From: Tubiluchus corallicola
Taxonomy: Eukaryota > Priapulida > Priapulimorpha > Priapulimorphida > Tubiluchidae
Direction of reading: 5' to 3'
Length of the DNA stretch: 64,000 nucleotides
Assembly: GCA_030141605.1 (NCBI GenBank)
Contig: JAQGDQ010000124.1
Span: forward strand, 501,001 to 565,000
The notes beneath the pieces were generated by a model. It did no database searches and was not told the origin of the DNA. It worked only from the letters and a program-made list of their open reading frames with translations. Positions 36,006 to 58,689 of this stretch are shown here, one piece after another. Position numbers and translations under genes: made by a program. How positions within the stretch are numbered: the stretch's first letter is position 1; each line of letters begins with the position of its first letter.

Positions 36006-36200
36006 CGTACACAGGCAATGACGTCATAAATACTCACTCTTTACCTGAGTGACAACCGCGTCTCTTTGATTTTTATCGTTTTACCTAACAAATCTGTAAA
36101 GAGAAGGATGCTGTTCTTCAAGCAAAAGAAGACTTAGTGGAACTTTTGTTTGTCCGAGGGTGCACGCGTAGAGTCCAAGGAAGACAGGTACACAGAATTT
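36006..36200 (+). repeat. cassette block A (CRE-bearing, diverged)
   Basis: It opens with a perfect CRE, TGACGTCA, at 36,019, followed by TAAATACTCACTC, and ends at an exon-like donor, AAGACAG|GTACACAG (36,186-36,199). The same donor context appears in block D (CATACAG|GTACACAG) and block F (TTTACAG|GTACATAA). The middle part does not align, so this is either an old member or only its two ends. No protein is recognisable. Confidence 0.4.
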
Positions 36201-37267
36201 AATAATACCATAATAGAATTTCTCTGTTATTTATGTAGAAAAAACATGATAAATAGCTTGGAGAACGATAGATGTATTACAAAACCTTAATTTTAAAACT
36301 CGAGAAATTACGTAGAAACTCTGAAGTGAAGACCAAGGAGCGCTTTTTGTCCTTATTTAAAAGAGGACCACAAAACTAGGTTAAGGCTTCGTGTTTTCTC
36401 AATTTTAACATCCAGAGGCAAACGCGAACTATTGATGCAGACACCGGCTGTTGGGTGAGCATCTTTTTATGCTGGCTTTTGTAATGAAAGGTCTTACACT
36501 CAAGATTAAGAAATCATAAGTTTTACCTTGGGGAGGCTAGCCGCTTTGGTTGGACTCAGGGTCCCGTTAGTATAGCTGTTTTTCCTAGAGCATTCCATGT
36601 GTTCGCCGTTCATTTCTCTACTGATTCGTCTTTCATGCAATTCAGAGGAAACCTGAAGAGCTTGTTCGTCACAATACAAAAATTTTATTGACTACAGTCT
36701 TCAACGGAAATCCAGCGACAATCAAACACAAACGCATAAAGTCACTGTAAATAAGTGACCGTCATTAAGTAAGTATTCATTTTTTCACATTAAATTTGAC
36801 AATAACCTGGCTACAACTACAAGTGCAATCATTTTTTACCAGCGAAACATTTTGTCGTTTTTACTACTGTACTCTCATTATCGGCTGCTCCGCTGACACG
36901 TGTCATGTTCTCATATTACTTCGCCTAACAGTCGGGATTACGGGCGAATTTTAACTAAACATTATAACTCAATTAATTGCAAAAATTCTAAACAGCCAGA
37001 AGATATAATTGAGGTAACCACCAATTATAATGCGTTTAAATTTGTAAGAAATTTAATCACGTTTAAAGGAACTAATTTTTTGGTATACGTGTTGTGAACT
37101 TCCTTTCGAATCCCACATTACCAAAAGGGGTGGGTAGTCATTCGTCATGAAACCAGCTCAACAATAATAATTAACATGCTTAACATGTGAGGCAGCAAGT
37201 GCCAGTCACCCAGATAGCAAGCCTAATGAAAAGGCAACTTGGGTTTTTCTGAATTGTCGGCTTTGAG
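36201..37267. other. gene-free DNA
   Basis: No supported gene was seen. An exon-like segment between AACATCCAG (about 36,410) and GTTGG|GTGAGC (about 36,454) has plausible splice signals only. Confidence 0.3.
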
Positions 37268-37500
37268 AGCACCAGAATCCGGTAATCCAGTTGTGCTCGC
37301 TTCCTGCCAGGGAGGTCTCTGGTTCAACTCTCGACCGAGTCATACCAAAGAATTAGGAAACCGCCGGTTCTTCGATCAAGCTTTATTGATGTAACGTGCA
37401 GGTAATAATAACCAGGACCGCCTTGAAAATAAGCGTTGAGGTACTCAAGGTATAATCCCTTGACCATGCCCTAAACGAAATTATTATTACTTAAAAAATT
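37268..37500 (+). mobile_element. tRNA-derived SINE
   Basis: The head contains GCTCGCTTCCTGCCAGG and the B box TCTGGTTCAACTCTCG, then GACCGAGTCATACCAAAGAA, a junction shared in form with the SINE at 10.9-11.1 kb. It ends near ATTATTATTAC. The A-box region is degraded. Confidence 0.55.
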
Positions 37501-37689
37501 GATATTCATTAAAACATCAGCCTTATTGGTTATTTTATTAAAGTAATATATTAAGTATGTGACATTTTGTTACTCTACACTCTACACAAACGCTAATTAC
37601 TACTTAAATACACCGTTATAAGTTCTATATAAATATGTAGGTTGAAAGCAAAACTAGTGCCGAATTTACAGAAAAGTGTAATGATCATT

Positions 37690-37960
37690 CTCTCCGTCCA
37701 GGAGCTTATATGAACACTTTCATCACAGCGAATTGGACGGTGAAAGAAGAAGGCGTAGGTTCGAATCGCAGTTGGGGTGCAAAGGTTTTCAGAGCTTTCG
37801 CGCGGAATCCAAGATATTAACTGCTGGTGTTGCCAGAAATAGCAGTTAAAGGCTTACCAGATAGTTCACTTATAGCTTCACCAGGGAGCAACCAACGTAA
37901 AATTCTGTGGGCCTGCCTCGTCCATTGACAGAAAAAGAACGTAGTGAATACACGCCTAAG
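37690..37960 (+). mobile_element. probable SINE with tRNA-like head
   Basis: A tRNA-like 3' half reads GCGTAGGTTCGAATCGCAG (B box GGTTCGAATC) followed by TTGGGGTGCAAAGG. The upstream A box is weak. The body extends to about 37,960 without a coding frame. It could instead be an isolated tRNA pseudogene. Confidence 0.4.
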
Positions 37961-38336
37961 CTAGGGCTTTTGTTTATATATTTTTTATTTCTGTCAACCT
38001 TGTGTCCTAAGCATGGATATGCATGATAAAAATTAATATATTAATGGGCAATTTGCGCAATGATATTGGGGTCTCAGTAATCGTCTGCAGACGTGCAGCT
38101 ATTATTACTAACACCCACTTTTGACTATGACACTGCACTTGTGTATGTCTCTTATTTTGGCTGACCAGTTATGGCGTTGTGTTTGAAGTCAAAAATGGTG
38201 CACAGGCTGGTCAGATAATGGATGAATGACAAACTTTCGTTCTCACTCAAAGCAGGTTCATGCTGATTCTGGCTGTTTACCTTGTAGAGGAATGTCGTAC
38301 TTACATCTGAATGTGATTAAGCCACCTCTGTCAGTT

Positions 38337-38392
38337 CAGTGGCTCATCTTAGTGGCTTTGCCTTGATAATAAGTGAGGTTCTAGTCTCCCCA
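38337..38392 (+). pseudogene. tRNA-like pseudogene or SINE head
   Basis: AGTGGCTCATCTTAGTGGC resembles a degenerate A box and GTGAGGTTCTAGTCTCC a B box at near-tRNA spacing. No acceptor-stem complement is visible, so this is not a functional tRNA gene. Confidence 0.35.
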
Positions 38393-38574
38393 TAAGCATA
38401 AAATCAGTTTGACCTGCTAATGAAGGCTGGATTATAGCTTGCACGATTCCGAACTGTACAAAAACAATAATTACTGAATAATTTAAATAGACCCTTTAGT
38501 AGCGTTTTGTTAATCGTTTATTTAAAATTTATACAGATGTCATTTTATACGGAAATGACGTGTAGCCCGGTTTG

Positions 38575-38850
38575 GGGACATTTTCCTGTGACGCCATAAA
38601 CACTTCTTAGCAACAGCTTCTTAGTTACCAGAAGAGGGCAGGAACTCGGAGTTGATCAGCAAGTCTACTGACGGAGGTTTGTTAATTTTTATTTAAACTC
38701 CTGAGAAATTACGACTAAAATCGTCAAGCTTTGCGAGACCAGCAGGTTTATGTATTTTCGAGTTCTTCCTTATTTCAGGAAGGCAAGATATCACAGACAC
38801 TGTTAACGACCCAAGATTTTTAAAGGTTCTGCAAGGGTAAGTACTTGAAC
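38575..38850 (+). repeat. cassette block B (type I)
   Basis: TGTGACGCCATAAACACTT is followed by AGCAACAGCTTCTTAGTT, later CAAGCTTTGC, then an acceptor TTCCTTATTTCAG, an exon-like segment (38,779-38,836) and a donor GTAAGT. The order matches blocks D and F. Before the acceptor a frame LISKSTDGG lines up with DGS frames in the other type I blocks, but a stop follows. The product is unknown; it may be a pseudogene of the repeated unit. Confidence 0.5.
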
Positions 38851-39709
38851 AGCAACGCTCTTGTATTGTTCATTTCGAAGGAGTAATTTGCGAATAGGGA
38901 ACCCTTTCAGGAAATGGAAAGGTCTTCACCAAGTAATGTGAATTAAATGAAAGCGACATTACGCATTTAGCAGTAAGGTAGTCAGACGAAAATATTATAT
39001 TATTGTATAATATATTAATCTATTTATGCTGTACATGTATTTGTGACAGATATTTGTAAGTATCATTAGCTAAGACAGAGACAATTTCCCTCATTGCAAA
39101 TATAAAATAGAATTCACCTTGTCACATGCTGTCAAAAAACCTTTGACCACTTCAGCATCCACCAGCAAGTACTTCAGAGTGAAAATTGTTACATATATCA
39201 GCAGGTTCGATAACTATCTGCGGTGTGTTAACATGATCACAGTTGGCACATGATACTGCAGTAGGCACTACAATAACACTGCAGGACATTTGTACTGTTT
39301 TTACTATATTTATTGATATAATTAACATATTAATATATGTTAACTATTTTTACAATTATCAGGCCCAGATAATAATTACAGTATATCTCCATGATGTAAT
39401 AATTATACTTATATTATGATAATAAAAGTAACGATGTTTAAATAGCATCAATCGTGGCAGCAGTGGTATAGACTCGTTTCCCAGAAAATTTGTCTTCTCC
39501 GACAAAAAGGAACAGAAATTTCACAGAAAATGTTTTTCCGAGAAAAGATAATGCGCAATAAAAAGTAGTTTATTTTAACTATGTGTATTGATTAATAGGG
39601 ATCATATAATGAAAAAATTGTCAACTCGTAAAGGCAAAAAAGTAGATCTCGATTTGTAACGTCAGAACGATTTGGTAGGGAATCATGTTGATATTTGAAT
39701 ATGCACAAT
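38851..39709. other. gene-free DNA
   Basis: No supported gene was seen; it is AT-rich with TATAATA-type stretches. Confidence 0.4.
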
Positions 39710-39820
39710 AGTGAGTAATCACGGCGTGTGATTCGTTACCGAAGTTAAGCAACGCCAAAGTTGCCTAAAACTGATTTATTGGGAGCCTGCTTAGGAAAAT
39801 CACTCTTGGGCTCGCACTCA
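39710..39820 (+). pseudogene. 5S rRNA-like sequence (pseudogene or 5S-derived SINE head)
   Basis: ACCGAAGTTAAGCAACGCC matches the conserved internal-promoter region of 5S rRNA (animal form CGGAAGCTAAGCAG.GTC). It is followed at the right spacing by ATTTATTGGGAGCCTGCTTAGGA, corresponding to the TTGGATGGGAGACCGCCTGGGA block. Enough substitutions are present (for example TTATT for TTGGA) to exclude a working gene. Confidence 0.6.
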
Positions 39821-40649
39821 AGCTACTTTTACTGTGATTCCGAACCATTTCGTTCATTTCTTGTTATGTAGAGAGGATGTAAATGCATCCGTATGTAACT
39901 TTACCAGTTCAGTGTTTCATCTCGCGGAATTACCTTTTTAATGAGCAAGGATCCGGTTCAGTCACAAAAGAACCTGTAAAAAACTTCCAAAGAAGCTTAA
40001 TTTATTGGAAAAATGTTGACCCCAAAATATTAACAAATCTGTGTGGTTCTCAAAGCCTTGGTGTTTTCACACTTTTATAATTTCTATTATTTATTAAAAT
40101 ATATTTCAAATACTGTGACAATCAATTGAATTTAAAGTGATCATATGCAGCAAATGATTCTGTGCAAATTACTGACAGAAAGGAATTTTATCTTAAAACA
40201 ACTTCAAATTGTACCAACGAAGTTTCAAAACAAAATATTTTTCCAAAACAAAATTTAAAAAAAAAAAATTGATACCTTAAATATTGCGTCATTTTAAATG
40301 ATTCCGATTGTTGATAGTCATTAGTCAAAGCACTGCAGATAATTAAAAGATGGCAGAAAGAGAAACAACAAGAGGGAGGGGGAGGTTGAGATGCAAATAC
40401 ATCGTCCTTCAATGAGATCAGCATGGTGAATGACACTGCACAGTTAGTATTGTATATGTCCTCTATCCATTTACAAACCGTTTTTAGCATTGCTTCACTT
40501 TGGATGCTAAGTAGTTATCGTGACCACTCGGTTTTCCGTCTTCCAATGGCAGAACTAAAAGCATGCAATACCGGAGACTTATCTGGTATGTCTGTGAGAT
40601 ATCTATGACTGCAGATGTCTTCAATATCTGTGGTCAACGACAGTAGACG
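39821..40649. other. gene-free DNA
   Basis: Short frames occur but none is recognised. The 100-codon reverse frame at 40,188-40,490 crosses an A-rich stretch and a GGGAGGGGGAGG stretch and looks spurious. Confidence 0.35.
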
Positions 40650-40830
40650 TCCTCACTGATGTCACAAATGTTAGCTCGTCATAAGATTTGGACGTCATAG
40701 CAACAGTTTCTTGGCTATTACACACATTAAGCAGATTGCTCAAAGAGGTGCTTCTATTCTGGGTGGATTCTCAAGTAAAAGCAAGTACTTTAGAGGTAAA
40801 TTTCGTTAAATTCTCTTGCAAAACCATGAA
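40650..40830 (+). repeat. cassette block C (type II)
   Basis: A half-CRE TGATGTCA is at 40,657, then GACGTCATAGCAACAG at 40,691 followed by TTTCTTGGCTATTACACACATT. An exon-like stretch then ends at TTTAGAG|GTAAAT (donor at 40,796), with TTCTCTT.C just inside. Blocks E1 and G have the same order and the same donor position. It is inferred to be a promoter plus a spliced, probably untranslated first exon. Confidence 0.55.
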
Positions 40831-41794
40831 CCATAATGCTAAAACGTTGCCTCAATCAACTCGCAATCCTTAATCTCTTTCAGAGACCCACACCAACGTG
40901 TAGACTGGTTTCTTTTCATCCCATAGGTTCTTGGCAGGAAATTCACAGCTCCTTGAAAGGAAAAAAACAGGGCTACACGATAGTTTCTATGGCCAAAGCC
41001 TTTGTTAGGATGAAAGGTAACGAGCTAGTTTTGCGGGAATGATTTTTTCTGATCTATTCTGCATTATCTATTTAGTTGAACTATTTTGCATTTACCGTTT
41101 CTAGCGAATTTGGAAGAGAAGACTTGAAGAGAATGGAGCAACACTGATGTACAAGTTTAGTGATTTCTTCCGAAGTACGAAGGCAGAATTCAATTTCAAT
41201 TCAACTAGATTCAGAATAGCAGGTATTCAATTATTTAAAAAACTATTCTTTTTTATATAGTCCTAAACCGTTTCTTGTAGCGTCCTCTTGGCTCTGGGTG
41301 GAGAGATTCTCAAATCACAACACATGGGGAAGACGAAATTAAATTTTTAAAATAAACTTTAAAGTTTCAGAGTTCCTACATCTTTTCTCTTAAGTATTTA
41401 TTAATCCTACAGTTCTTCCTACAGAGAAGTGTTATTATTATTTTTATTAAATTTATTATATATATTAAATCTTATTGGTGATTTTTAGAAGGCATAATGG
41501 CTGGTAATCTTCTTAAGACTACGGAGTGTATGCTCAGCTTAAATAATTGAATCTGAATAACAATATGATAATAATTATATCACTACACCGTTAGGCATTA
41601 AACATTAAACTATTTCAGCCTAAGCAAGGCCCGGGGAAGTGGGGCGTGTGAGGCCCCCTGGGGGGGGGGGGATGCCACCATGGTTGGCGCCCAGAAAATG
41701 TTTGAACTGCTAGAACGCATTTTCGAAGAGAAAATATGGAGTTATACAGTTGTTAAAGGAAAGAACAATCTTTGCAATATGTAATACCGTATTC

Positions 41795-42174
41795 TCACTT
41801 CCGTACAAGCCATCTTCTGACTTTTTGTTTCGCAAAGTTATCAATTAACTCGTTAAAATCAAGGCCTCTTGCTACAACCATATTCATTCGAATAATTGAC
41901 AGACCGTTTAACCGATCCTGGATCATCGTCGAACGATTGTCGGTTTTGATATTTTTAATGCACTGAAAGAGCGTTCACCGTCGAAACGGAAACTGGCATT
42001 GATAAGAAAATGCGAAGTGCGACGACAATATTTGGATAGACTTTGACTACTTTCAGTGCAATAATTCGGTCCAACAATTTTTTGCGTCGTACAGTATTTA
42101 AAATGCTCGATTAAAAAAGCGCGTTTCAAAATACGATTCAAAAAGCGCGTTTCATCTACAACATTTTTAAACAC
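41795..42174 (-). pseudogene. hAT transposase C-terminal dimerisation domain (ZMYM-type), broken
   Basis: The reverse strand reads ERSFSALK (41,953-41,976) in the context of the hAT dimerisation motif, then a stop and a one-base shift, then MIQDRLNGLSIIRMN and ARGLDFNELIDNFAKQKVRRW, matching the family order ERSFS.LK-RLs.LsiL-dF...I..FA..K.RR. Only this C-terminal part survives; the BED/TTF and DDE-type catalytic regions are absent. The protein cannot be active. Confidence 0.75.
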
Positions 42175-42385
42175 ATGTTTTGAATACTTTTTTGGAAATT
42201 TGTAGCAATGGTTCTATCGCTCTCTTCAAGAATATGAAATTTCCACAAAAAAACGAACGTCTCACAAATTTGATCTAAAGCTTGAAACCGCCGCGATAGG
42301 CCACCTAAAATTGAATCTAAAATCACACACTTATTTTACAACATCGCACAGGCACCGAGCCGCACAAGGCAAACGGCGCGTGCGG

Positions 42386-42530
<145 letters not shown>

Positions 42531-42694
42531 GCAATATATTCGCATAAAGCAAAAAAGTGTTACCTCGGCGCGAGGCCCCACTGGAGGGTGAGGCCCCGGG
42601 GAAGTATCCCCACTTCCCCCCCCTGAAATAGGCCCTGCCGTTAGGCACGGGACAACTTTGTCCAAACTTCTTCATTGCAAATTTTGCGTGTTGG

Positions 42695-43090
42695 GAGTCA
42701 GGACATTCTTGGTGACATCATAAACACTCTTTCTTAGGTCATAGCAACATAGCAACCCATTATTAGTTTCTTGACAGTAGAGCATTTTCATTTGCAAAAC
42801 TGTTGTTGGTGGTTCTGCCGTTATACTCAGACCCTCAATAAGAAAAAAACAAAGGCTTCAAGCTTTGCTACAAACTAATTGGGCTTAGTTAGTTTTCATT
42901 TCTTACTTAGGATCCAGATCTAGAGCCAGGAAAAGACAGGAAATGCAAGAAATCGCCAGGACACAGGCAGCATTATTAGGAGGAGACGCAGTAAAGGTAA
43001 GTTGTGCAAATAGGGAGCCTACGCAAACCCGACAAACAGCCCAGGGCCTGCAAGACATACAGGTACACAGATTATAATATTATTTTGCTT
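42695..43090 (+). repeat. cassette block D (type I)
   Basis: TGACATCATAAACACT is at 42,713, then GTCATAGCAACA, then an open frame VVGGSAVILRP (about 42,809-42,841), then CAAGCTTTGCTAC. An acceptor TTTCTTACTTAG precedes an exon-like segment of 86 nt (42,911-42,996) that ends in a perfect donor AAG|GTAAGT. In the segment one frame is fully open (SRSRARKRQEMQEIARTQAA...). Block F has the same segment at 89 nt, so the lengths differ by exactly three. No protein family is recognised; a coding role is possible but unproven. Confidence 0.55.
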
Positions 43091-43370
43091 GTTTAACTGG
43101 TATGAAAAATATGGCTTTGCTTTGTTCAGGTATTGTGTTGGTGGTTCTTTTTAAATTTGTTCGAAACTTATACCTTATATCCGTGAAAACTACATATGAA
43201 TGTTCAAAAACGCAGTGACATTCCATATGGATAGAGGAAGAGCCAAGCGTGAATTTCAGTGAGAATCCTTACACCTATACTTCGTCATATTTATCTAGTA
43301 TTGGTCTTTCTTCCTAAATCGCACAGCAGCTCTAAAATGGGCGTATGTAGACTATAGGCTGCGCCGTAAA

Positions 43371-43840
43371 AATGGTACAGGGAAAAAGGACACAGTAAAA
43401 TGGCACAGGAAAATGGCGCAGGTAAAAATGGTACAGAAAAAACGGCACAAATGGAAAAGTAGGTAGAATGGCACGTGTTATTTTGATGGAATTGATTTTA
43501 TATGAAAACTAGAATTCGCTCAGTAAGAAGCAGATTGGATTTCTATCGAGTAATGGACGAATGTTCCACATAGTGTTTATCTGCCTTTTTCATCATTGAT
43601 TTTAGCGGTAGTAATTAATAGACTGACAATAATATGCGTATCAAGTCTATAAGGCTACACACCCAATGAGTAAAGGTTACTCGTGAAGTGATTTACGAGT
43701 GTTTTTTATATGTGGTGTTCGGTCAAGTTTTGCGAAAAGAGAACTGGCGAAACGATTCCAATTTTTGCATTCTTTACCCGCCTTTCTTCACAGAGTTTCT
43801 GGAAATCTGCTAGATAGTTTTTGAGTAAAGGGCTTACTGC
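43371..43840 (+). repeat. dispersed repeat, inverted copy of the 18.4-18.7 kb element
   Basis: It starts with tandem variants of AAAATGGCACAGG (43,376-43,470) and continues through GGTGTTCGGTCAAG, CCCGCCTTTCTTCACA, TGCTAGATAGTTTTTG and AACAGACGAAAAC, which match the reverse strand of 18,420-18,640 in order. It has no coding capacity. Confidence 0.6.
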
Positions 43841-44044
43841 TGTAACAGACGAAAACAAACAACCAAATAAACAGTCAAACCAACTGTGTTGAACAGAAGT
43901 AAAACTAACTAAAAGAATTTAGTTAACTAAAAAACTTTAATTAAATAATTGATTCCTTACGTTCCTTGTGAGTTAAAATAACTCAGTCGATTCGTGATAA
44001 CTTATTTACTTGTAGTTCTTAATTTTTGTGTAGCACAACTGCAC

Positions 44045-44150
44045 TATGAGATCGGGACGCACCAAAAACTTTAAAAATGGTACGTGCTGTTTCTTTACCT
44101 GGCATTTAGGGTAAAAGTGGGGTAATAATAGTCTCTGTTATGTAGTTGTA
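44045..44150 (+). mobile_element. SINE fragment
   Basis: CGCACCAAAAACTTTAAAAA, TGGTACGTGCTGTTTC and TACCTGGCATTTAGGGTAA parallel the body of the reverse-strand SINE at 10.9-11.1 kb. The tRNA-like head is mostly lost. Confidence 0.45.
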
Positions 44151-44219
44151 CACTGCTATTTACAATCGCTTTTTTGGAGCTTATGTTAATTGTTTATCCA
44201 AAAAGCCGACTTTAAATGA

Positions 44220-44270
44220 AGATTATCATCATTATCATTATCATCGTCATCATCATCATCGTCATTTTCT
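44220..44270. repeat. ATC/ATT triplet microsatellite
   Basis: An imperfect run of ATC and ATT triplets (TTATCATCATTATC...CATCATCATCATCG). Confidence 0.8.
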
Positions 44271-45494
44271 AATATCCACAAAGTGACATTGATTATTTAC
44301 GTTGTTTTTTGACGTCTGTCATTTCTTTGTCATAAGATAATGTCATATCAATAAGATATGTCATTTCTTTGGTACGCCACACTGATCCTTCAACACGTGA
44401 TATCATTCTGTTGGCATAGCTGCTTATGTTCCTTCAATGTAGCCAGTTCTACAGGTCCATTCATAAAATTAGGTAATTTTTCACTGGTACAGCTGGAGTT
44501 CATGAAAAAAAATCATAAACTGAATATTTTACAAGATGATAAGTTTATGAGCTATTGAGCTGCAACATGAACAGTACCGTAACCGAAATGGTACTGGAAT
44601 GGTAAGTCTATGCCCATAGTAGTTTTTGGCTAGTTCACTGACAGTGGAGTAAATAACGAACGTAACGTAATGTAATGGAATGTAACGTAATGAACTGCAG
44701 AATGAACATTAGTGTGAAGTGAAATACAGTGTGACTTGAACAGGAATGTACTGGTTCACTTTCATCATTATGGAGTTTTTAGAAGAGAAAATTAAAATGT
44801 GCGCCGCAAAAAAGTTAGCAGGCCATGGGTACTTACATAAGCGCAATAATTGTCTTTAATAAGATTTTTTAAGAAATTTTGTCTTTAAGAAATTTTTGAA
44901 GTAATATTGCTGTCTTCACGACATCCTTAATGGATTGAAACAACGACGAGTGACGTCGTCCCTATTTTGTAATTTTATGTTTGAATATTTTGTGATTTTT
45001 TTTATTAACTGTATCGACAGGTGGCTGTTACATACAGGCAGGTAGCTTTATGATTTTGTCCTTTAAAAACTGCAGATTAATGATAATTTAAAGACAGCTG
45101 TTGCATTTGCATCTTGCCTGTACTGGGGACTGTTGAGTTGTGGTAGGCAAATTACAGTAAGTGAATATCAAACTATTTGTGAATTATGGTGAAACCTGCG
45201 AGTAATTATAATATGATACAAAAATATATTCATACTTCTGGTCATCTCACCTTCTCTCCTCTGTCTAAGTGATAGTTGCCTCACTTAAACCGTATTTTGT
45301 TACTGATATGTAAGAACTGGTTCGTTATTAACGACTAATTTAATGATCATTGATAATTATGAAAATGTCTTAGATTGATCCTGTGCTAATATTCTTGTTA
45401 TTGAAGATTTAAGCCTTGAGAGTTGTTAGTGCGAGGTTTTTCCTTCTTCTGTACCAGGCAGACTGCCTAGGTACTTACATTTCTTCCAGGCTTG
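44271..45494. other. gene-free DNA
   Basis: A cluster of TGTAACGTAATG-type words occurs near 44,660-44,695. No supported gene was seen. Confidence 0.4.
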
Positions 45495-45800
45495 TGATGT
45501 GACGTTTGAATGACGTCAGAAACGTTTACTCATCGTTGGAAGTCATAGCAGCAGTTTCTTGGTTATACTACACACATTCAGCAGACGATGAAGGAGTCCA
45601 CAAAGGAAGGTTGTTTTGGCTGGAGTTCTTAAGTTAAAAGGAATGACTAGGTGAGTGTTGTGGAAATTTCTTCAAATTCTCTTACTGTGCCATACATAAA
45701 CGTATGATTTTCGCTCGTGTAATTTGCCTGTTGATGTCATATTTTTACTTATTAATGATGTTAGTTATATCTGTTCACGTCCTTCTTGCAGTAGATAAGG
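45495..45800 (+). repeat. cassette block E1 (type II)
   Basis: A perfect CRE TGACGTCA is at 45,511, then GAAGTCATAGCAGCAG and TTTCTTGGTTATACTACACA. An exon-like stretch containing GGAAGGTTGT and GGAGTTCT ends at GACTAG|GTGAGT (donor at 45,651), followed by TGGAAATTTCTTCAAATTCT. Block G repeats this nearly word for word, including the downstream CTGTTCACGTCCTT segment at about 45,770. Confidence 0.6.
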
Positions 45801-45810
45801 ATGTAGCAAC

Positions 45811-45930
45811 AGCTTCTTAGTTGCCGTGCAAGGCAGACTTTGATTAGCACACTGCGTGTTGTTGATGGTTCGACTGTTCTACTCAAACCCCCGAAACCTA
45901 AGAGAGAAAGCTCTGATCCTTTTCTAATTT
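45811..45930 (+). repeat. cassette block E2 (partial type I)
   Basis: GTAGCAACAGCTTCTTAGTTGC is followed by an open frame LRVVDGSTVLLKPPKPKRESSD, parallel to DDGSAVILKHPKK in block F and VGGSAVILRPSIRKK in block D. The CRE-like start is missing. The block breaks off just before the LINE at 46.0 kb, which probably inserted here. Confidence 0.5.
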
Positions 45931-46011
45931 GCAGTCTTACATATTTTTATTTCTTGCGGTATTACAGTACAGAAAAAGCTCGAAACAGCACAGCTTTCGA
46001 TCTTACATTTC

Positions 46012-47120
46012 ATGAAACCCGTTGTTTCACCATTTTTGGACCCGTTTCAATTTGCATATCGTGCTAATCGTTCCTCAGATGATGCTGTAGCTTTTGTTGT
46101 TCGTGGTATAATGTCACACCGTGATAAACGTTATTGTTATACCAGAATCCTTTTCGTCTATTTCAGTTCAGCTTTCAGTACTGTTCTGCTACTAATATTG
46201 TGTAATAAAATTGCGGAACTTAATATACCTGACTGGTTAGGGCTGTGTAAGTTCGTACTTGAGTTCTTGATAGGACGCTCAAAGGTCGCCAAGATAACTA
46301 ACGGAAATACATGTACTACCATTTTCTCAACTTCTAAGGTTGTTAATACAGGAGCTCCTCAACGGTGCGTCCTATCTCCAATGCTATGCACTCTCTTTAC
46401 ATATGACTGTGAAGTATCTTTCCGAAATATTATGATGGTAAAATTCGCTGATGATACCACACTGCCTGGCCGTACTTGCAGTAACAACGAGACTAATTAT
46501 TTTTTGGAAGTTCAAAATTTAACACGATGGTGCGAACAGAATAATTTAGAACTGAATGTTTCAAAAACAAAAAAAAAATTATCGTAGATTTTAGAAAAGA
46601 TACTGATGGAAAAGCACCTTTGCTTATAAATAATACAGCTGTAGAAATTGTTAAAGATTTCAAAATCCTGAGAATAAAAATTTCAGATGATCTTAAATGG
46701 GAAGTTAATGTGCTCTGTTGTGCAAAAAAGGCCCGCCAGCGTTTGTATTTTTAAGATAACTTACATCGTACAGTAATTGAGAGCGCCCTCACTTTTGGAA
46801 TGGCGCTGCCACCGCAAGGAGATCGCAATGCTCTTGATCAAGCTGGTAAACCGCCTCAAAAACTATAGGAATTGAACAGCAATCTATGACATATTTGTAT
46901 GACACTAGCCTTAACTAGGGTAACAAAGAGAGCATACATAGGGTAGGAAAGAAAGGGTAAGGTAACAAAGAAAGGAATTCCATCCAGATAATAAATATTT
47001 TGAAATGCTCCCCTCTGATCGTAGATTCCGCTAAATTAACGCTAAAACCTCAAGAACTTTAAATTCTTTCTATCCCGTTGCAATTCGCAACAGTAAATTT
47101 CAGTAAATCTCCAATATTAA
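46012..47120 (+). pseudogene. Rex1/CR1-like LINE reverse transcriptase, broken
   Basis: The frame from 46,012 reads DPFQFAYRANRSSDDAV, FVYFSSAFSTV, NTGAPQRCVLSPMLCTLF and FADDTT (FADD at 46,444-46,455), then WCEQNNLELNVSKTK. The order and wording are those of Rex1/CR1-group reverse transcriptases. The catalytic Asp expected in motif A (.D.SSAF) is Tyr/Phe here and the GAPQG Gly is Arg, so the enzyme is inactive. A poly-A slip at about 46,568 shifts the frame (VDFRKDTDGKAPLLIN). The C-terminal block KYFEMLPSDRRFR...NSFYPVAIRNS is at about 46,985-47,095. No endonuclease domain is present (5' truncation). Confidence 0.8.
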
Positions 47121-47514
47121 TTCTCTATGTCACTGTACAACCGATTGAATTATTTGTGTTAATCTCCTTGTTGTTTCCATAAGTTAACTGCAGTACGTAA
47201 AACACATAAATTTCATTGTATGTATTATGCTATAATGACCATAAATTGCTTACTTACATATTTACTTACCTGCTGCACAAGGGTTTTTGAAAGCAGACTT
47301 TCTCTTTCGTCTATTTTAATTGAACCTAAATGCTTATACAGTGCTGAACTATAGACAATAAAAACAATGCAAAAAATGTTATCATTTCTGCATTAAATAT
47401 TTTAGAATCGATTTGTATGAGATAATTTTTGTTAATCCTACACTTCGCTTTAGAAGGCCAATAGGTTCATTAAATTAATGTCTAGATTAAAATACGTGAT
47501 TACCGATTTCGCAT
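47121..47514. other. gene-free DNA, includes LINE 3' tail
   Basis: The non-coding tail of the preceding LINE probably ends near TATAATGACCATAAA (about 47,240). No further feature was seen. Confidence 0.35.
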
Positions 47515-47840
47515 ATGGGGTCATTTTCTGTGACATCATAAACACTTGTAGCTCGTAGCAACAGCTTCTTAGTTGCATGAGAAACATAATTAGTCAAATT
47601 ATCGATGATGGTTCTGCTGTTATACTCAAACATCCAAAAAAGTAAAAGACAAAAGCCCTCAAGCTTTGCTGGTCCAAGTGTTCTTACCTGTTCTTCATTT
47701 CTTGCTTAGGATCCAGGATCCCAGATCTAGGAAAGGCAGGAACCGCAGGAAAACTCAGCCACAGGCAGCCTATAAGAGGTCCAAGAGGAGTGGCAAAGGT
47801 ACGCACAGAAGTCAAGATTTACAGGTACATAAAATATTTT
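47515..47840 (+). repeat. cassette block F (type I)
   Basis: TGACATCATAAACACTT is at 47,531, then GTAGCAACAGCTTCTTAGTT, then an ATG-led frame MRNIISQIIDDGSAVILK (from about 47,577) ending at a TAA. CAAGCTTTGCTGG and an acceptor TTTCTTGCTTAG lead to an 89-nt exon-like segment (47,710-47,798, Arg/Lys-rich in one frame: RSRKGRNRRKTQPQA) and the donor AAAG|GTACGC. It is the closest relative of block D. Function unknown. Confidence 0.55.
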
Positions 47841-48427
47841 TATACTGTTTATTAATGAATAATGAAATATGGTTTTGCCTTGTTCTGGCGTTGAGTTGAT
47901 CCTTCTAACCCTTTAAAAACAGTAGTAATTCATGCACTAAGAGGAATGTGAATTTCTGTGTAAAAGAATCATTAAGCTCATATTTTGTGTCAAGGATTAT
48001 TAGACGCTTGTACAACAACTCCAACATGTAGCTACAGAGCTGCCTGGAAGAAATCAAGCTATTATCTGTAATATCAGGCTCCAGTTTTGACATTTTGTTA
48101 TGGTTTTTACAGTGCGCACAAAGCGATATTGATAATTTATGTTTTCTTTCGTCACTGGTCCTATCTGCAATTGCTGTCTTTTTTTATATAGTTAGTTATT
48201 CCGGTCCTTCCACATACTTCGCTATATTTCTTCATCGGCTGTACACCTGGTTTTGCCAGTCCTTTGGCATACTGTGGTGCTGTATAACTGCAGTTAAAAT
48301 TCTTACAGAAGAATTGATCCTCTTTCCCATTCTTTCCTGATCTCTCGCACGTTATCTTACATTTTTGTTTCAGGTAAAATTTTGCTGGAGTAAAACAAAA
48401 CGTGCGCGTATAGAAAATATTTCCACT

Positions 48428-48720
48428 AGGGGACAAAATCTGAAAAATTGGGGTCGGGAAGAGAAATACACCAAGTGTCAAGTAGTACCATGTAGTATTT
48501 CAAATGAAAGCTCTTGATGAGACGAATCGATTGGTATATGTTACAATGAAAATGGCTAACCTGTGAACCCTCTGGGGGACAAAATATGGGTTGAGGAGAC
48601 AAAGGCCTCCAGTATCAGCCGATCTAGCTAGTAGTACATTAAACGAAAGGTCTCCTTGAGATAAATTGAATGGTATAAGTTATGCCGAGATAGGTTGACC
48701 TCTGACCTTAGGACACGGGT
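48428..48720. repeat. about 140-bp tandem duplication, strongly diverged
   Basis: GGGGACAAAATCTG and GGGGGACAAAATATGG start two copies. In each, GTAGTA.TT.AAA.GAAAG follows, then TTGGTATA or ATGGTATA, then GTGAACCCTC or TTGACCTCTG. No coding content was recognised. Confidence 0.5.
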
Positions 48721-49239
48721 TGAAAAGTTACAAGTTGCGATTTCAAGTGCTGTTCCTATGAATTCAAGCAATGCGAATTCTATAAAACAAAGTTAGACTT
48801 TCAAAGAAAAGGCTGACATCTTTTCAGTAACCATTCTGTAACTACTGTTTCACAGTTTGGCTTTTCTGTCGGATATAGGGATGTTTAATTGGTGGGTGTT
48901 CATAACACTGCAGTATATGTATACGTGCCTACCCTTAAAACAAGCAAAAAACAAGCATACTGCATTTTGATTTAAACGAAGCTATTTAAAGCTGAGCAAG
49001 AAACTGATAAAATTTAAGGATTGCTACAAGAAAGAGAAATTGCCACGTAAAAGGGTGCATACTGCATAAAGAGACATTACCACGTAAAAATTTACGGTGT
49101 GCAAAAGTTGAAGGGCAAGAATACACAATTCTTACGTAAAGCTGAAAAAAATTTGGTCTTGAAAATATATATCACGTACATAACATGCTGGCTTTGATTG
49201 CTTGCATTAGCAGTAGCGCTATATAAAACGTGTAGTTTT

Positions 49240-49445
49240 AAATTCCTGCGCTGACAGGACAGCCATTTTAAGGGTCAATCGTTGAACAAGTAATTTAAGC
49301 AAGTCTAAATAACATCGCGTATTATTACCAAGAATTTTCTTTTCTATTTACATACGTCTTTCAAACAGGAAGTATAATGCTGAGTAATATAGCTTTGTAT
49401 GGAAAGTTTTTTGAGGCGTATTTAAAAATTGCCTTTTAAATTCCA
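49240..49445. repeat. dispersed repeat, relative of 1.23-1.64 kb
   Basis: CAATCGTTGAACAAGT, AAATAACATCGCG, AAGAATTTTCTTTTCT, ATGCTGAGTAATATAG and AAAATTGCCTTTT recur in the same order as at 1,262-1,620. The foldback arm part is incomplete here. Confidence 0.6.
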
Positions 49446-50570
49446 AAGTACTGAGATCAAACTAATTAGTAATGGCGTAAGAAAAGGTCAGTGTACACTC
49501 TTAGCAATGATTGTGAACTTCTATTTCCGTTTAAGCGATTAGTTTTTTCATCAAACCAGTTCGTCAGTTTTAGTTTAACAAACTATTTTGATCGTGTAAA
49601 CAGTGAAAGTAACAAACTTTTTGTTTGACAAACAAAGTTTGATGGTATCAAACCGTCCTAAGTTCATCAAACAAAAACCAACAAACTCAGACTCAACAGC
49701 CGCGCTCTCATTACATTATATCGATTGCTCATTTCGTAGCGGGGTGGGGGTGGGGGGCTGAAAATTTTGTCATTAATCCAGCAAGTGGTACATATACAGC
49801 GATCAACGATACAACATGATATTGGAACTTGCAGGGTAGAAACAGTGGTAATAGAAAATAGATTTTGATTTTGCTCAGAATAAAAAAAAAGAAAATTCTG
49901 ATTTTGCTGTACAGTTTCTATCAATGAACGAAACAATTTGTGAAGAATCACTTTGTTATACAATATACAGGCTTTGGTTAGATAAACTGAACTTCTTGCA
50001 GTAAATAGTCAAACCTCTCAACGTTTAAATCTTTGAAATTAGGTTGTAACTGTCCTTTCTAAATGCTTCGCTGTAGTTATTTTTCCATTTAAACTTTTCT
50101 AACTCTTTCTTGTCCAATTTCTCCTTTTTTAATCGCACAAGTTAGCCCAATATAGACAACAAAGCACGTCTGCACATTGGCGCCATAACTTGACTGACAC
50201 TCCTCGCTGAATAGTTATTATAACCTTGATAATATGTCGTCTAAATACTCGTCGGTTTCGGTTTTTAGACTGGCTGTTTTTGTTTGATTTAAAAATTGAT
50301 CGATACATTTGTTATAATTTTATTCTTAATCTGAAATCTTTTGAATTATATCATCAATGCCGCTGAGGTAAAACCAACCGAACTTGACGCACAGGTAGGA
50401 AACCTAACATTAGCGATGGAGCGTTACTAGGTGCCATGATGTTGATATTGAAGGTTGGCAGGAGTCGAATCACTGAGGCATCCAACAAGAAAGTTGATGG
50501 AGGTAATAGCTGTATCGTGGTATATCACGGCAGGGCCAAACTGCAGTGTAAATCCATCCAAAACGTTCAT
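49446..50570. other. gene-free DNA
   Basis: Imperfect repeats of TTTGATGA and ATCAAAC words occur near 49,540-49,670. No gene is supported. Confidence 0.4.
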
Positions 50571-51122
50571 GGCAGGGCCTGATCACTGTGTGCATGCATT
50601 TCACGGCAGGGCCTGATCACTGTGCGCCTGCATTTCACGGCAGGGCCTGATCACTGTGTGCATGCATGTCATGGCAGGGCCTGATCACTGTGTGCATGCA
50701 TTTCATGGCAGGGCCTGATCACTGTGTGCATGCATGTCACGGCAGGGCCTGATCACTGTGTGCATGCATTTCACTGCAGGGCCTGATCACTGTGTGCATG
50801 CATGTCACGGCAGGGCCTGATCACTGTGTGAATGCATTTCACTGCAGGGCCTGATCACTGTGTGCATGCATTTCATGGCAGGGCCTGATCACTGTGTGCA
50901 TGCATTTCATGGCAGGGCCTGATCACTGTGTGCATGCATTTCACTGCAGGGCCTGATCACTGTGTGCATGCATTTCACGGCAGGGCCTGATCACTGTGTG
51001 CATGCATGTCACGGCAGGGCCTGATCACTGTGTGCATGCATTTCATGGCAGGGCCAGATCACTGTGTGCATGCATGTCACGGCAGGGCCAGGTCACTGTG
51101 TGCATGCATTTCACGGCAGGGC
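50571..51122. repeat. 34-bp minisatellite, about 16 copies
   Basis: The unit GGCAGGGCCTGATCACTGTG + TGCATGCATTTCAC repeats head to tail with point variants only (TTTCAC, GTCACG, TTTCATG). It is preceded by looser versions from about 50,530. It is not a CRISPR: there are no unique spacers and the host is a eukaryote. Confidence 0.95.
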
Positions 51123-51189
51123 ATGAAACATAGTGCACATAACCGAAAAAACTGATGGGGCAGTAGCCGCTCATTTTCGTAATTTTTAG

Positions 51190-52011
51190 TTTATTTTGTG
51201 ATATGATAATCATAATAATGATAATTGTTGTCGTCGTCCATTGAATCATGCGTTCAATATCCAGGGACATGATTCTGTTCACCTCCTCACTCCAGGACTC
51301 ACTGATCTGTGCTGAAGTGTTTTAATGTTGCTGCGCAAAATCTAAATTTGTTAACATTTGTCCTCCTGCAGATATTGCTTGCTGAAGGGCTGTCTTCACT
51401 AGACTATCATCAGTTAGTCTAAGCATGTGCCCAATCCATCTTAAACAACACCTTTTTATTTTTATTTTCCGACGTTCTTCTCTTATTTATTCATATAATG
51501 TCATTATTTGAAATGTTCTTTGCCCATCTGATATACAAAATGTTTCTGTAATTTCATAGTTGAAATCCGTCAATTTCCGCTTTATAATTTCTCAGAGTTA
51601 TACAGTAGTGCAGTTTCAACTAAGGTTTTGTTTTCAAAGATGTTTCCCTGTTCTCAACAACTTTTTGTGGGTTTTGAATATACTGATAATGCCACTATCT
51701 TCAGTCTTGATGCATTTCTCTGTTACCAGCAGACTACCAAGACATTTGCAAGTTTTTCCATGATTCATCACCGTGACGAATTACGTGAGTTAGTTTTACT
51801 TTTGTTTAGTATAAGATCCATTTTTCAGATTTAATTCTATTGAGTTTTTTATTGCATTTAATTCATCTTTGTTTCTTGTGATCCATGCCACATCATCAAC
51901 GCACTTTATAGGGATGTTTGGTAGAAAGCTGTAACAGAGTTTTCGTCTTATTTCAGTTAGTATTAATTCAGGATAAAGTATCGTGTAAATGTGATATTCT
52001 AAATCTTTCAA
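51190..52011 (-). pseudogene. LINE (RTE-like) C-terminal fragment, antisense
   Basis: The reverse strand begins with KCVDDVAWITRNKDELNAI, a variant of the YADDval...s..eL box in which the first two residues are changed. It continues through several stops to RCCLRWIGHMLRLTDDSLVKTALQ (about 51,365-51,475), the well-known C-terminal RWLGHvlRM.d.R..K.aL motif of endonuclease-reverse transcriptases of the RTE type. It is frameshifted and dead. Confidence 0.6.
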
Positions 52012-52087
52012 TGCTATAATTGTGTCCTTTGAGAGTTATGCATGATCCAGTAAGAGCTAATCGCGATAATATCAAAGTAATTATGGT

Positions 52088-52418
52088 CAGGGCCTATTTC
52101 AGCCTAGACGAAGCCCGGGGAAGTGGGGCGTGTGAGACCTCATCGGGGGTGGGGCGATGCGCCAGGGGGCGGGCGCCACCATTGTTGGCGCGCGGAAACT
52201 TTTTGAACTGCTAGAACGCCGGAGAAGCATTTTCGAAGAGAAAATCAAGACCAGTCCTTAATACTTGTCAATACTGGCAAATCGTGTGTGCGGCAAGAGA
52301 GGGAGAGAGGAGGCAGTATGTTCGCATAAAGCAAAAAAAACGTTACCTTTGCGCGAGGCACCCTGGAGGGTGAGGCCCCGGGGAAGTATCCCCACTTCCC
52401 CCCTTGAAATAGGCCCTG
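52088..52418. mobile_element. hAT MITE, copy 2 of the 41.6 kb family
   Basis: Perfect terminal inverted repeats CAGGGCCTATTTCA and TGAAATAGGCCCTG are flanked by an exact 8-bp duplication ATTATGGT (52,080-52,087 and 52,419-52,426). Internal words GCCCGGGGAAGTGGGGCG, GAACTGCTAGAACGC, TTTTCGAAGAGAAAAT and TTCGCATAAAGCAAAA are shared with copy 1, from which it differs by loss of the transposase region and a short AG run. It must be mobilised by a transposase made elsewhere. Confidence 0.93.
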
Positions 52419-52584
52419 ATTATGGTCACTGTATGATAAGTATAAAATAAGTCCTAAATACGATTATTCTAATAATATTTGTACAAATTTTCACGATTAC
52501 AACATCTGTTTGCTTTACTTTAGCTTGGCTTGTACAGATAAGGTGCTTAGCTGTGAGACATCTAAAATAGGCTGGCTGATGCTA

Positions 52585-52890
52585 TCTGACGTTTTCAATG
52601 ATGTCATAAACGTTTATTCCCTACAGGCTTGGACGTCATAGCAAATTTTATTGGCTATGCCACACATTCAATAGACAGTTGAAGAACTCTAACAGGAAGG
52701 TTGTGTTGTTGAAGTTCTGAAGTATTTGAAAGAAACCACGGGGTAAGTCTCCTGGAAATTTCTTCAAATTCTCTTACTGTTCCGTACACGTCCTGAAATA
52801 TGTTATTCTTACAACTAATTTGTTCATTAACGTCCTATTAATGCCTGCTAGTGACGCGAGTTATGCCTGTTTACGTCCTTTTTGAAGAAA
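52585..52890 (+). repeat. cassette block G (type II)
   Basis: TGATGTCATAAACGTTTA is at 52,599, GGACGTCATAGCAA at 52,631, then TTGGCTATGCCACACATTCA, AACAGGAAGGTTGTG, and a donor at 52,743 (ACGG|GTAAGT) followed by CTGGAAATTTCTTCAAATTC. It lines up with block E1 over its length, including CTGTTTACGTCCTT near the end. It is inferred to be a promoter plus a spliced 5' exon. No downstream coding exon was identified. Confidence 0.6.
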
Positions 52891-55800
52891 GTGACAGAGC
52901 AGTTAAGAAAAACATGAATTTCTGGTAAAGAATTCTATATAGTTAATTGCGTAAGAAACGCAAAAGAATTTTATTGCGAATCGTGTTGCATTTCAGCATG
53001 TCCAGGAAAAACATGAGAGCAAACTGATGAGATGTAAGAAATGTCCCGAAGAGGTTCTAATAACATCGTTTAGGTACCGACAAAAGTTACTTAGTGTAGT
53101 ACCCCCCCCCCCAATAGATCCTCTATGATCAAGGAATGGCAAGGAATTTTAAGTCTCTTTCCGTGAAGATCGTAATGGCTTGGGAGGGGGGGATAGCTTT
53201 TTACGCCTTGATATATCTTTCACAACAAGAACGGATTTAGTTTTTAACACTAACTTTGAATTCATGTGGTTTGAAATTAATCTTACAAGCTTAATTTTAT
53301 ATATGTGTGTCTGTTACCGGATTCCTACTCAAGATGCTCCTATCGAGGATGAGTTTATAAATCAGTTACAATTGTCTCACGACATGCTGATTAGCAATGT
53401 TCGCTATGCAATCATATATATATAGGCGATTTTAACGCCAAGTGTGCAGTATGGTACCCTCCTGATGGTGAAAATCGTTTTGGTTCCAAATTATAAACAT
53501 TTACTGTTCAGGATCAACTTTCAGAGTTAGAAACACATCCTACCCGTATTTCAGATGTGTCTAGCTCTTTGATTGACCTTGTTATACTGATGCTACCGGT
53601 TTAATAACAGAGAGTGGTGGCATGTCACCTATATATACACTTGATCATAACTCTATTTATGGTAAAATGCTTATAAATCTTCCAATTGCAGTTTCCTACC
53701 AAAGAAATTTTTTTTATTATAATACAGCAGACTGGTGAGGTTTAAATCAAGCTATTCATGCTACTGATTGGAATTTACTTTTTGCAAATGAAACTGTTGA
53801 TTCTGTTTGTGCTAATTTTATTACTAATTTGTCAAATTTGATTGATGACTATGTGCCACATAGAACCCATAACCATTCGGCCTTGGGACAAGTTGTAGAT
53901 GAACAGCTACGTCAGAAAATTAAGAAAATCTGAAGAAAAATCTCATAAATACTGCAAACTGTATCAAACTGCTAAATCTTAGGAGAAATACAAGCGTTGT
54001 AGGAATATTTATAATAATTCTTTAAAAAAGCTAAAACTGATTATATGAAGAAACTAAATACTAAATTACTCGATTCACAAACCTGCCCCAAGGCCTGGCG
54101 GAACAGTGTCAACTCATTTTACAAAAGCAAGCATGACTTTGTTATTCCACCTCTTAAAGTTAACAACTGTATTATAGCTGATACCAAGCTCAAATGTAAT
54201 ATATTTAACAATTTTTTTGCTGATAACTGTAGTGTAAATTGCGGTAATACCATACGTCCTCCTTTCTCTTTGATCACTGATAGTGTTTTGTCGACTGTTG
54301 ACCTGTCTGAGCATATAGTTTTGTAATTTCTTGAAATGTGTAAAAGTCGGTAAATCAACAGGTCCCAATCGCATAAGTAATATTGTTTTGAGACAACGTT
54401 CTCAGTCGCTTTCTGAGCCTTTAACGTTATTATTTAAAATGTCTGTTAACAACGGAATGTTCCCGTCAGTATGGAAAATAACTAATGTTACTCCTGTATT
54501 TAAAAAAAGGTGATGGGGAACTGATTACTAATTATAGGACAATTTCACTACTTTCTTGTGTTTCTGAAATCTTGGAGCAGATTGTGTATAAAGAACTTTA
54601 TAATTATCTTGTTACTGACAATAATCTGTTGAATGAGTGTAATTCTGGTTTCACGCCAGGTGATAGTACAATCAATCAATTGGTATCTATTGTCCACAAA
54701 ATATACTCTGATCTAGACGCTGATACAGGCAGTTTTTCTCGATGCAAGTAAAGCTTTTGACAAGATGTAGCACAAATGTCTCATATTAAAATTATCCCAG
54801 CTTTTGCATCAGTGGCCCTCACTACATTGGTTAGCTTCTTATTTATCTGGTAGTAGTCAACAAGTAGTTATGGAAGATGCCCATTTGTCCATGGCTGCTG
54901 GGGTGCCTCACGGCTCTGGGCCCTTTTTTGTTTCTTGTCTATGTAAATAACATTACTCATAATATACAGTGTGACATACGTCTTTTTGCCGATGATACTT
55001 CCATAATGGATACAGTCACAGACCCGGTAGATTCTGCACTGCGTCTAAATTCCGACCTAGAGGCCTTGCAGCACTGATATGATAGATGGTGTATTACCTT
55101 TAATCCACAGAAACCTGAAGTAATGCTCTTCTCTCGTAAAATCCAGCAACGTCATCATATGCCACTTTATCTCAATAATATAACTTTAAAACATGTTAAT
55201 TCCCATAAGCACCTGGGGATACATATTACATGTGATCTAAAATGGGAACAACGTGTAAAGCTAGAGCCCAGATAGTGGTCATCGCATCTGTTCAGCCAAA
55301 ACTAAGAAACTTGCGAGGTCTAGCTGCTCTAGCCACTATACTGCCGCATTCAACTTATGAATTCTTGTTGGAAACAATTATTTTACCCACTTTTGAATAC
55401 AGTAGTATTGTAATAAATAATAGATAATTTTATTTCGTAAACATGGTTCAACGCAGTAATAATATAAAATAACTAATGGAAGTTAGCCATATGCGAGGGC
55501 AACGTATGATCATGGGGTCCTTCACACGTTGCCCTTATTTAAAGATTAATGAATTTGCAGTGGCTGAATTTGCAATGTGAAGATAAGGCAGTATTAACTC
55601 TTTTAAAATAAGGTCTAATTTAACTCTAGTAAAAGATACAAATTTGTATAAGTCTTAAAAACTAAAGATTTCCTATAAATAAATTTTACTTCATAATTAT
55701 TTTATGTTATGCTTTTTATGAACAAGAATCTTACATAGTTAATCAGATTTTGTATTCCCTACAATGAAATATATCATTTTAAAGTAATGCATTATATATT

Positions 55801-58252: not shown

Positions 58253-58689
58253 GGCCAAGCCGAATCTGCAAGTTGGAATAGGTTTTATCATAGCGATCCT
58301 AAGAAAATTTTCAGGTAAAAAACAGGTAAGTACTTAAACTAAAATGTGGTTAAGTTTGCTGATCAGGTCACGGCCAAAGCAAAATTATCTTGAACTTACT
58401 CGTCTATTTTATTTCAGTAAGCTGAAGAATAAATGCACTGCAAGAATGTTGGTACTTGGTAAGGGATAAGGAATTCTGGAACGATCGTGTCAGTAGATGA
58501 GCAGTGGAAAGGGATATATGATGTCAGGAACTGAACATGAACATCATCGCTCCGGTAAGTTTGCATGTCTAGTCATACTCGTTGAAATGTTTTTAATATT
58601 TTGCTATGTAGCAGTATCTTCTTGATTTGTCCTCGGTTTTTATTATTTATATTTATTTTTGTGCATCTTTAATAATTGCATGTGCGCAG

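Follow-up and report, generated by a model that had tools for sequence, protein, structure and literature searches.

A tandem array of CRE-bearing blocks with putative noncoding promoter modules

The 64-kb window (the whole 64,000-nucleotide stretch of DNA analysed here) contains eight related blocks, all on the + strand and at the places given for them by a first-pass annotation of the same DNA. They comprise block A, blocks of two types (I1 to I3 and II1 to II3) and a partial type I block, pI. The full blocks open with a module in which a CRE-like site runs into ATAAAC, usually followed by an RFX-like half-site; the names CRE, X-box and half-site, and the form AGCAACAG for the RFX-type half-site, are those we take to apply to these motifs.

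36019..36187, + strand: block A; CRE core TGACGTCATAAATA at 36019-36032, no RFX half-site; GACAG/GTACAC piece at the 3' end, common to I2 too
38573..38880, + strand: block I1; CRE at 38589-38602, TAGCAAC half-site at 38608
40646..40832, + strand: block II1; CRE at 40657-40670; a further CRE-like site, GGACGTCA, starts at 40690 and runs into TAGCAACAG at 40698
42701..43357, + strand: block I2; CRE at 42713-42726, TCATAGCAACA at 42739
45497..45791, + strand: block II2; CRE at 45511-45524, GTCATAGCAGCAG at 45542
45802..46011, + strand: partial block pI; RFX-like half-site, no CRE
47519..48200, + strand: block I3; CRE at 47531-47544, TAGCAACAG at 47556
52584..52895, + strand: block II3; CRE at 52599-52612, GGACGTCATAGCAA at 52631; RFX part eroded in the window, ATTGG present

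When the blocks were aligned, identity was 71% between II2 and II3 (307-310 columns) and 65% between I2 and I3 (452 columns); I1 and pI were 64% and 68% identical to I3, and II1 was 68% and 66% identical to II2 and II3. Profiles of the two types scored their own blocks, by construction, at 152-295 bits (type I) and 168-311 bits (type II), against 2.5 and 6.6 bits for the best of 20 dinucleotide-shuffled windows, and found no further strong match in the 64-kb window. A profile built from type I blocks without type II also picked out, at scores higher than in any shuffle, the CRE/RFX part of two type II blocks, II2 (8.4 bits) and II1 (5.9 bits), which indicates that the two types have their opening module in common; II3 (2.3 bits) and A (2.1 bits) did not exceed the best shuffle. 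The same profile also scores 4.0 bits at an unrelated place, 20964-21007. These comparisons identify types I and II as two homologous families with a common opening module of ~50-75 bp. Block A is a weak member: what it has in common with type I is the CRE core together with a single piece resembling GACAGGTACACAG, and its promoter-module profile score of 27.3 bits is by construction. Of seven pairwise comparisons between blocks within the window, four showed the module to be clearly more conserved than the rest, and in the other three it was equally or nearly equally conserved (identities for module and rest: 0.71 and 0.71 in II2/II3, 0.69 and 0.64 in I2/I3, 0.58 and 0.55 in I1/I2).

Seven blocks bear a CRE, and in all but one of them a putative RFX-like half-site follows at a distance of 19-41 bp; by coordinates, TAGCAA starts 19, 25, 29, 35, 40 and 41 bp from the start of the CRE. 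The annotation had also reported GTCATAGCAACAG near the block starts. This stands for II1, the only exact copy, and approximately for I2 and II2 (1 mismatch) and I1 and I3 (2 mismatches), but the motif is truncated in II3 and missing from A. With 2 mismatches it also occurs at two places outside the blocks.

We then searched the genome (343.5 Mb) with I2 and II2, and found four more close array copies and one smaller, diverged copy, all inside larger duplicated segments. I2 matched at least six long places and II2 gave at least eight matches (four II2, four II3), all in array contigs except one 35-base repeat match; these counts are lower bounds and refer to I2 and II2, the two blocks used as genome-wide queries. 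The order A-I1-II1-I2-II2-pI-I3-II3 is the same in the three complete close copies (contigs C2115, C1797 and C1934), and so is the junction that joins pI directly to the end of II2. C61 holds a cut part of the array, and C1744 a smaller diverged array without several units.

This low-copy distribution bears on the idea that the blocks are a family of non-autonomous transposons or solo LTRs whose promoter carries a CRE, an explanation that would fit repeated blocks with a promoter-like start in a region with many transposon fragments. Diverged copies elsewhere could be missed, since the II2 search missed the diverged II block of C1744, which the profile found; this slightly raises the odds of such an origin. 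However, the matches counted above are few and lie in the array contigs, order and strand are fixed across copies, and no inverted repeats of at least 60 bp were found within 33-55 kb. Hundreds of copies with transposon termini, named by the annotation as evidence against local gene-like units, did not appear in the I2 and II2 searches, within the lower bounds given. We consider a mobile-element origin of the blocks highly improbable.

The annotation had proposed that transposons entered a two-type array later, and two transposon-like inserts are indeed lacking in those close copies whose sequence spans the sites:

41598..42637, no strand assigned: transposon-like insert between II1 and I2; absent from C2115, C1797, C61 and C1934
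52090..52418, no strand assigned: second, shorter insert, related to the first; absent from C1797, C2115 and C1934

Read directly, the first is flanked on both sides by CCGTTAGGCA (41588-41597 and 42638-42647) and the second by ATTATGGTCA. Weaker I2-I3 homology resumes near 44214-44330, so a further insert of ~850 bp probably lies between block I2 and this stretch; it is present in the close copies too. The region as a whole is rich in transposon fragments. We also considered C1744 as the state before duplication, and rejected it: the type I tree groups its later I block with I2, not below I2+I3 (94/97), which makes a loss of units in C1744 likelier. In the type II tree the C1744 II block sits at an unresolved fork. 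According to the tree, the divergence among type I blocks is older than the split from C1744, yet the CRE-like core is kept in seven blocks.

To compare constraint along the array, we counted variable sites among the close copies. The seven 14-bp CRE cores varied at 2 of 98 sites, against 1877 of 11274 (16.6%) in the background; variation as low was reached in 6 of 3000 random layouts, and in 13 of 5000 draws of one random 14-mer per block. The 14-base core was picked after the alignments had been inspected; the 8-base CRE alone varied at 2 of 56 sites (p = 0.003). The 14-bp result survived dropping any single contig (p at most 8.6e-5), and in the diverged C1744 the core differed at 1 of 56 bases (a hand count on alignments) against ~16% (p = 0.0007). 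CRE-like octamers had 4 of 80 variable positions in blocks and 10 of 32 outside, the latter from only four octamers, of which two lie where the DNA aligns poorly. When invariant runs were ranked by length, three of the top eight contained all or most of a block CRE: among the runs, a 56-bp one in I1 (38575-38630) includes both CRE and half-site, and a 58-bp one in I3 (47536-47593) most of the core. Longer invariant runs without a recognised motif also exist. Constraint on the whole module was modest (65 of 1518 cells differ, 4.3%, against 2418 of 42501, 5.7%), and the 60-bp windows at A and II3 were not conserved (84th and 78th percentile).

The low variation of the CRE core points to purifying selection on it, and binding by a CREB/ATF factor is predicted. 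Retention of the CRE-bearing module across copies, as proposed beforehand, is supported. Conservation is looser at the RFX half-site, which A lacks and which is eroded in II3, than at the CRE, and does not reach significance (9 of 89 sites variable, p = 0.06); a role for RFX is less certain.

Reduced variation on a binding-site core, and not on donors or frames, is also what would be seen if the blocks were enhancers or insulators in tandem that serve a nearby gene and start no transcript of their own. Inside the array no coding genes were recognised except reverse-transcriptase fragments, which agrees with such a cis-regulatory array. Against it, the blocks remain homologous for ~200-700 bp on the downstream side of the module, as would be expected of a transcription unit or simply of a segment that was duplicated, and no common neighbour gene of the array copies was recognised in the stretches examined. 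We regard it as somewhat unlikely.

Next, we studied splicing and coding potential. Ranked with splice-site weights, the donor-like sites of the window blocks are strong, falling within the top 0.2-2.5% of GTs, and several acceptor-like sites are among the best few percent. Among the close copies, the donors varied at 8 of 54 sites, the background level. The II1 donor-like site at 40796 is GC in all four other close copies, the I3 donor is AT in two of three, and the I1 donor is altered, with GT kept, in all four; I2, II2 and II3 retain a usable donor. The splice positions that the annotation took to be conserved are thus not under detectable constraint, which gives no support to an array of spliced lncRNA genes, and its short proteins fared no better: most indels have lengths not divisible by three, reading phase does not persist, and the frames tried had no Pfam hit. 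Of 416 frames, 83 are intact in at least three copies, the best-kept being short and overlapping on both strands within invariant patches. Protein coding is therefore unsupported by frame integrity, mismatch phase, ORF-to-ORF comparison or a Pfam search with 16 frames.

The blocks could nevertheless be remnants of a tandem protein-gene family of which the 5' promoter and leader parts survive, while its coding exons have disappeared or can no longer be recognised. The high-ranking donor- and acceptor-like sites are consistent with this, and so is a 127-aa open frame that follows block A in C1744 and is stopped or frameshifted in the five closer copies. However, that frame has no Pfam match; when ORFs were compared from unit to unit, those of the 30 best matches with E below 0.003 all fell in blocks or transposon-like DNA, and decay alone does not account for the kept CRE core. 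We judge such remnants unlikely.

A structured RNA was likewise not supported: Rfam (gathering cut-off and E <= 1) gave no match at E <= 1 in 36-53 kb, the II2 fold z-score was 0.96, and an uncontrolled consensus fold of three type II sequences had two-sided changes in 11 of 53 pairs but a covariation term of only -1.1. II2 and II3 have 28 identical bases in common shortly after the donor, which made a spliced-leader RNA a candidate. It was dropped because donors and exons are not specially conserved and Rfam has no match. A 24-base type II pattern had no match in either public viral or public prokaryote contigs.

Since the CRE is nearly unchanged while the surrounding DNA drifts, the switch seems to matter more than a protein or spliced RNA. 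Our preferred reading, to which we give slightly less than even odds, is that the locus is an old, low-copy tandem noncoding array with selected CRE-centred promoter or enhancer modules. A composite CRE-like site of CREB/ATF type, running into ATAAAC, stands at the start of each full unit; type I and II units would have been tandemly duplicated as the array grew, and the array copied within larger segments to several genomic places, taking up transposon-like inserts. Purifying selection would keep the CRE core. Most likely each module would act as a promoter, or as an enhancer with promoter-like properties, to which a CREB/ATF factor binds, assisted by RFX in some units; it would start noncoding transcription, with little depending on the precise sequence or splicing of the RNA. 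A narrower version, in which the cassettes are promoter-only units kept for CREB/ATF-RFX-driven transcription or chromatin opening while RNA sequence and splicing drift, appears distinctly unlikely.

In the MHC class II W/SXY promoter module, RFX binds X1, CREB X2 and NF-Y Y. The array resembles it in that an RFX-type half-site and a CRE lie side by side within one short module, which recurs along a gene cluster in the MHC case. The part of PMC7866136 available describes W/S, X1, X2 and Y boxes with fixed order, orientation and spacing. In contrast, the array has the CRE first and the RFX half-site second, CRE-RFX spacing varies over 19-41 bp, II3 is the one block in which a CCAAT-type ATTGG was seen, and the 16 frames given to Pfam revealed no MHC-like gene; an MHC-type module was rejected on order and spacing. 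The E1A-responsive element of the PCNA promoter, cited in the accessible text of PMC2568806 as binding RFX1/EF-C and ATF-1, likewise has RFX and ATF factors on one short element, but as far as that text goes it belongs to one coding gene and not to tandem noncoding units. Spermatid promoters driven by CREM and RFX2 also use CRE and X-box sites, with RFX2 sites near the start site; in mouse, however, the available part of PMC4498915 has the two factors controlling largely separate gene sets, whereas in the array both sites share one module. Such a noncoding CRE/RFX array was not found in the literature searched, a weak negative.

If the modules work, nature would have provided a set of composite CRE/RFX elements at different stages of divergence, with selection on the regulatory core and not on the product. 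The array would make it possible to ask whether tandem noncoding DNA of this kind persists for its transcription rather than its transcripts, and its segmental copies let promoter constraint be separated from splice constraint. The common strand of the blocks is accounted for by tandem duplication alone.

The block array proposed by the first-pass annotation is real, and comparing the window with itself recovered four of its blocks in the following places:

42701-43148, + strand: type I block I2
45497-45791, + strand: type II block II2
47519-47906, + strand: type I block I3
52584-52887, + strand: type II block II3

In this comparison II2 and II3 were 71% identical and I2 and I3 were 65% identical across 452 columns, with I1, the partial I block (pI) and II1 as additional family members. 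Profiles of the two types scored 152-311 bits on their own blocks, as they must by construction; the top scores in 20 dinucleotide-shuffled windows were 2.5 bits (type I) and 6.6 bits (type II), and neither profile found any other place in the 64 kb approaching the block scores. With no type II blocks used to build it, the type I profile also scored higher than every shuffle on the CRE/RFX portion of two of them, II2 at 8.4 bits and II1 at 5.9 bits. Its scores for II3 and block A fell under the top shuffle value, and one unrelated place reached 4.0 bits. Because of these matches to II2 and II1, we read both types as beginning with a common module: TGAYGTCATAAACR or a near variant, then a gap of variable length, in many cases followed by TCATAGCAACAG. 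The exact form GTCATAGCAACAG occurs only in II1, and block A has no more in common with the others than its CRE core and a single short piece. The best-kept stretch between II2 and II3 is a run of 28 identical bases (45661-45688 and 52753-52780) soon after the type II donor-like site.

A search for further copies across the genome (343.5 Mb, 2344 contigs), using I2 and II2 as queries, led to few places, all but one of them on the array contigs. With I2 there were at least eight matches. Five near copies at 93-100% identity lay in the window and contigs C2115, C1797, C61 and C1934, the last in two pieces; the others were contig C1744 at 72% and a 35-base repeat match. The II2 matches, at least eight, were four II2 and four II3 blocks, all on C77 (by context the window's contig), C1934, C2115 and C1797. 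The diverged II block of C1744 was missed by the II2 search and later recovered by profile, so further diverged copies may exist elsewhere in the genome. In 20 stretches taken around the matching places, the order A-I1-II1-I2-II2-pI-I3-II3 was found on a single strand in each of C2115, C1797 and C1934; C61 carries A-I1-II1-I2 and then ends, and C1744 has A, I1, a second type I block, a type II block and an additional weak match. Likeness among the copies was 92.5-99% in the five regions compared. Homology extends beyond the blocks, to a large share of positions 34.7-64 kb for C1797 and C2115 and, for the portion of C1934 included in the comparison, to 35.6-58.3 kb; therefore whole segments were copied. 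C2115 and C1797 may be alleles, since the same 212-aa membrane-protein-like frame, with no Pfam match above cut-off, lies upstream of the array in both (~4.2 kb in C2115, L019:538-1173, − strand; ~2.8 kb in C1797, L023:1854-2489, − strand).

The proposal that elements were later inserted between blocks held for two inserts, each with a 10-base direct repeat flanking its ends: 41598-42637 is missing from 4/4 close copies covering the site, and 52090-52418 from 3/3. A 34-bp satellite array lies at 50464-51126 and is seemingly longer in the C1934 copy. In the block trees, from which the split I2 of C1934 was excluded, blocks clustered by position across contigs (I1, pI, I2 and I3; II1, II2 and II3, each with its own kind). 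The later I block of C1744 grouped with I2 (94/97); I2 and I3 were therefore already separate before, and units were probably lost in C1744. Its II block sits at a fork that the type II tree leaves unsettled. Path lengths were ~0.3-0.9 changes per site between block positions, compared with 0.1-0.2 for the C1744 split.

Next to this divergence, the CRE core varied little. Where three or more of the other four close copies gave coverage, 1877/11274 background sites (16.6%) were variable, a figure lowered by the exclusion of poorly aligned DNA. Among the seven 14-base CRE cores, picked after the alignments had been seen, 2/98 sites were variable and both changes were still CRE-like; the 8-base CRE alone gave 2/56 (p = 0.003). 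Random 14-mer layouts were equally low in 6/3000 trials, or 13/5000 with one random 14-mer per block, and the result persisted after omission of any single contig (p < 1e-4). CRE-like octamers had 4/80 variable positions in blocks vs 10/32 outside, where there are only four, two of them poorly aligned. In C1744, ~16% diverged, a hand count on the alignments gave 1/56 core bases different (p = 0.0007). Of the eight invariant runs of greatest length in the array, three contain the whole or most of a block CRE, those of II1, I3 and I1. The three longest runs (48558-48642, 43149-43232 and 53025-53107; 83-85 bp, invariant across the array copies that cover them) have no recognised motif and exceed every CRE-bearing run in length. 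Other comparisons were weaker: across the whole module the gap was small (4.3% vs 5.7% of cells differing), the RFX half-site reached only p = 0.06 for reduced variation, A and II3 were unremarkable across 60 bp, and within the window the module was kept no better or barely better than the block remainder in 3/7 comparisons.

The conserved splice positions and short proteins suggested earlier were not borne out. By generic splice-site weights, the best donor-like site of each full window block ranked in the top 0.2-2.5% of GTs, but across copies donor-like sites varied like background (8/54). The II1 donor is GC in 4/4 other close copies, that of I3 is AT in 2/3, and that of I1 is altered in 4/4 with GT retained; a usable donor survives in I2, II2 and II3, and C1744 lost the GT of the I1 donor and retained the I2 donor. 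Acceptor-like (6/70 variable, p = 0.04) and exon-like stretches (58/442, p = 0.02) gave weak signals. We found no retained reading frames in the blocks or copies and no Rfam matches within 36-53 kb, and II2 folded no better than its shuffles. Directly after block A, C1744 has a 127-aa open frame (L010:6828-7208; C1744:416828-417208, + strand) with no Pfam match found; all five close copies carry a broken version of this frame.

Because the CRE core is kept while splicing and coding fail, the likeliest reading of the sequence is a CREB/ATF-centred promoter or enhancer module opening noncoding units. A CREB/ATF factor would act at the CRE, with RFX assisting in some units; the module would open a noncoding transcript whose RNA itself would be little constrained. 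Composite CRE/RFX elements are already known, among them the PCNA promoter element (PMC2568806) and the W/SXY module (PMC7866136), which has a fixed order and spacing, whereas the array here has neither. A tandem noncoding array of CRE/RFX modules was not found in the literature searched, which is weak evidence of absence.

In the window as a whole no tRNA was found, and the sole Rfam match at gathering score was a degenerate 5.8S rRNA (9801-9927, − strand, 56.7 bits). Reverse-transcriptase-bearing repeat copies, 93-95% alike and spaced ~1.48 kb apart, lie within 58303-64000 and occur also past the window end and on other array contigs. A rhodopsin-type receptor, which points to an animal genome, lies in a single open frame at 11255-12457 (+ strand), its nearest PDB entries being CCK (CCK-A), ghrelin and neuropeptide receptors.
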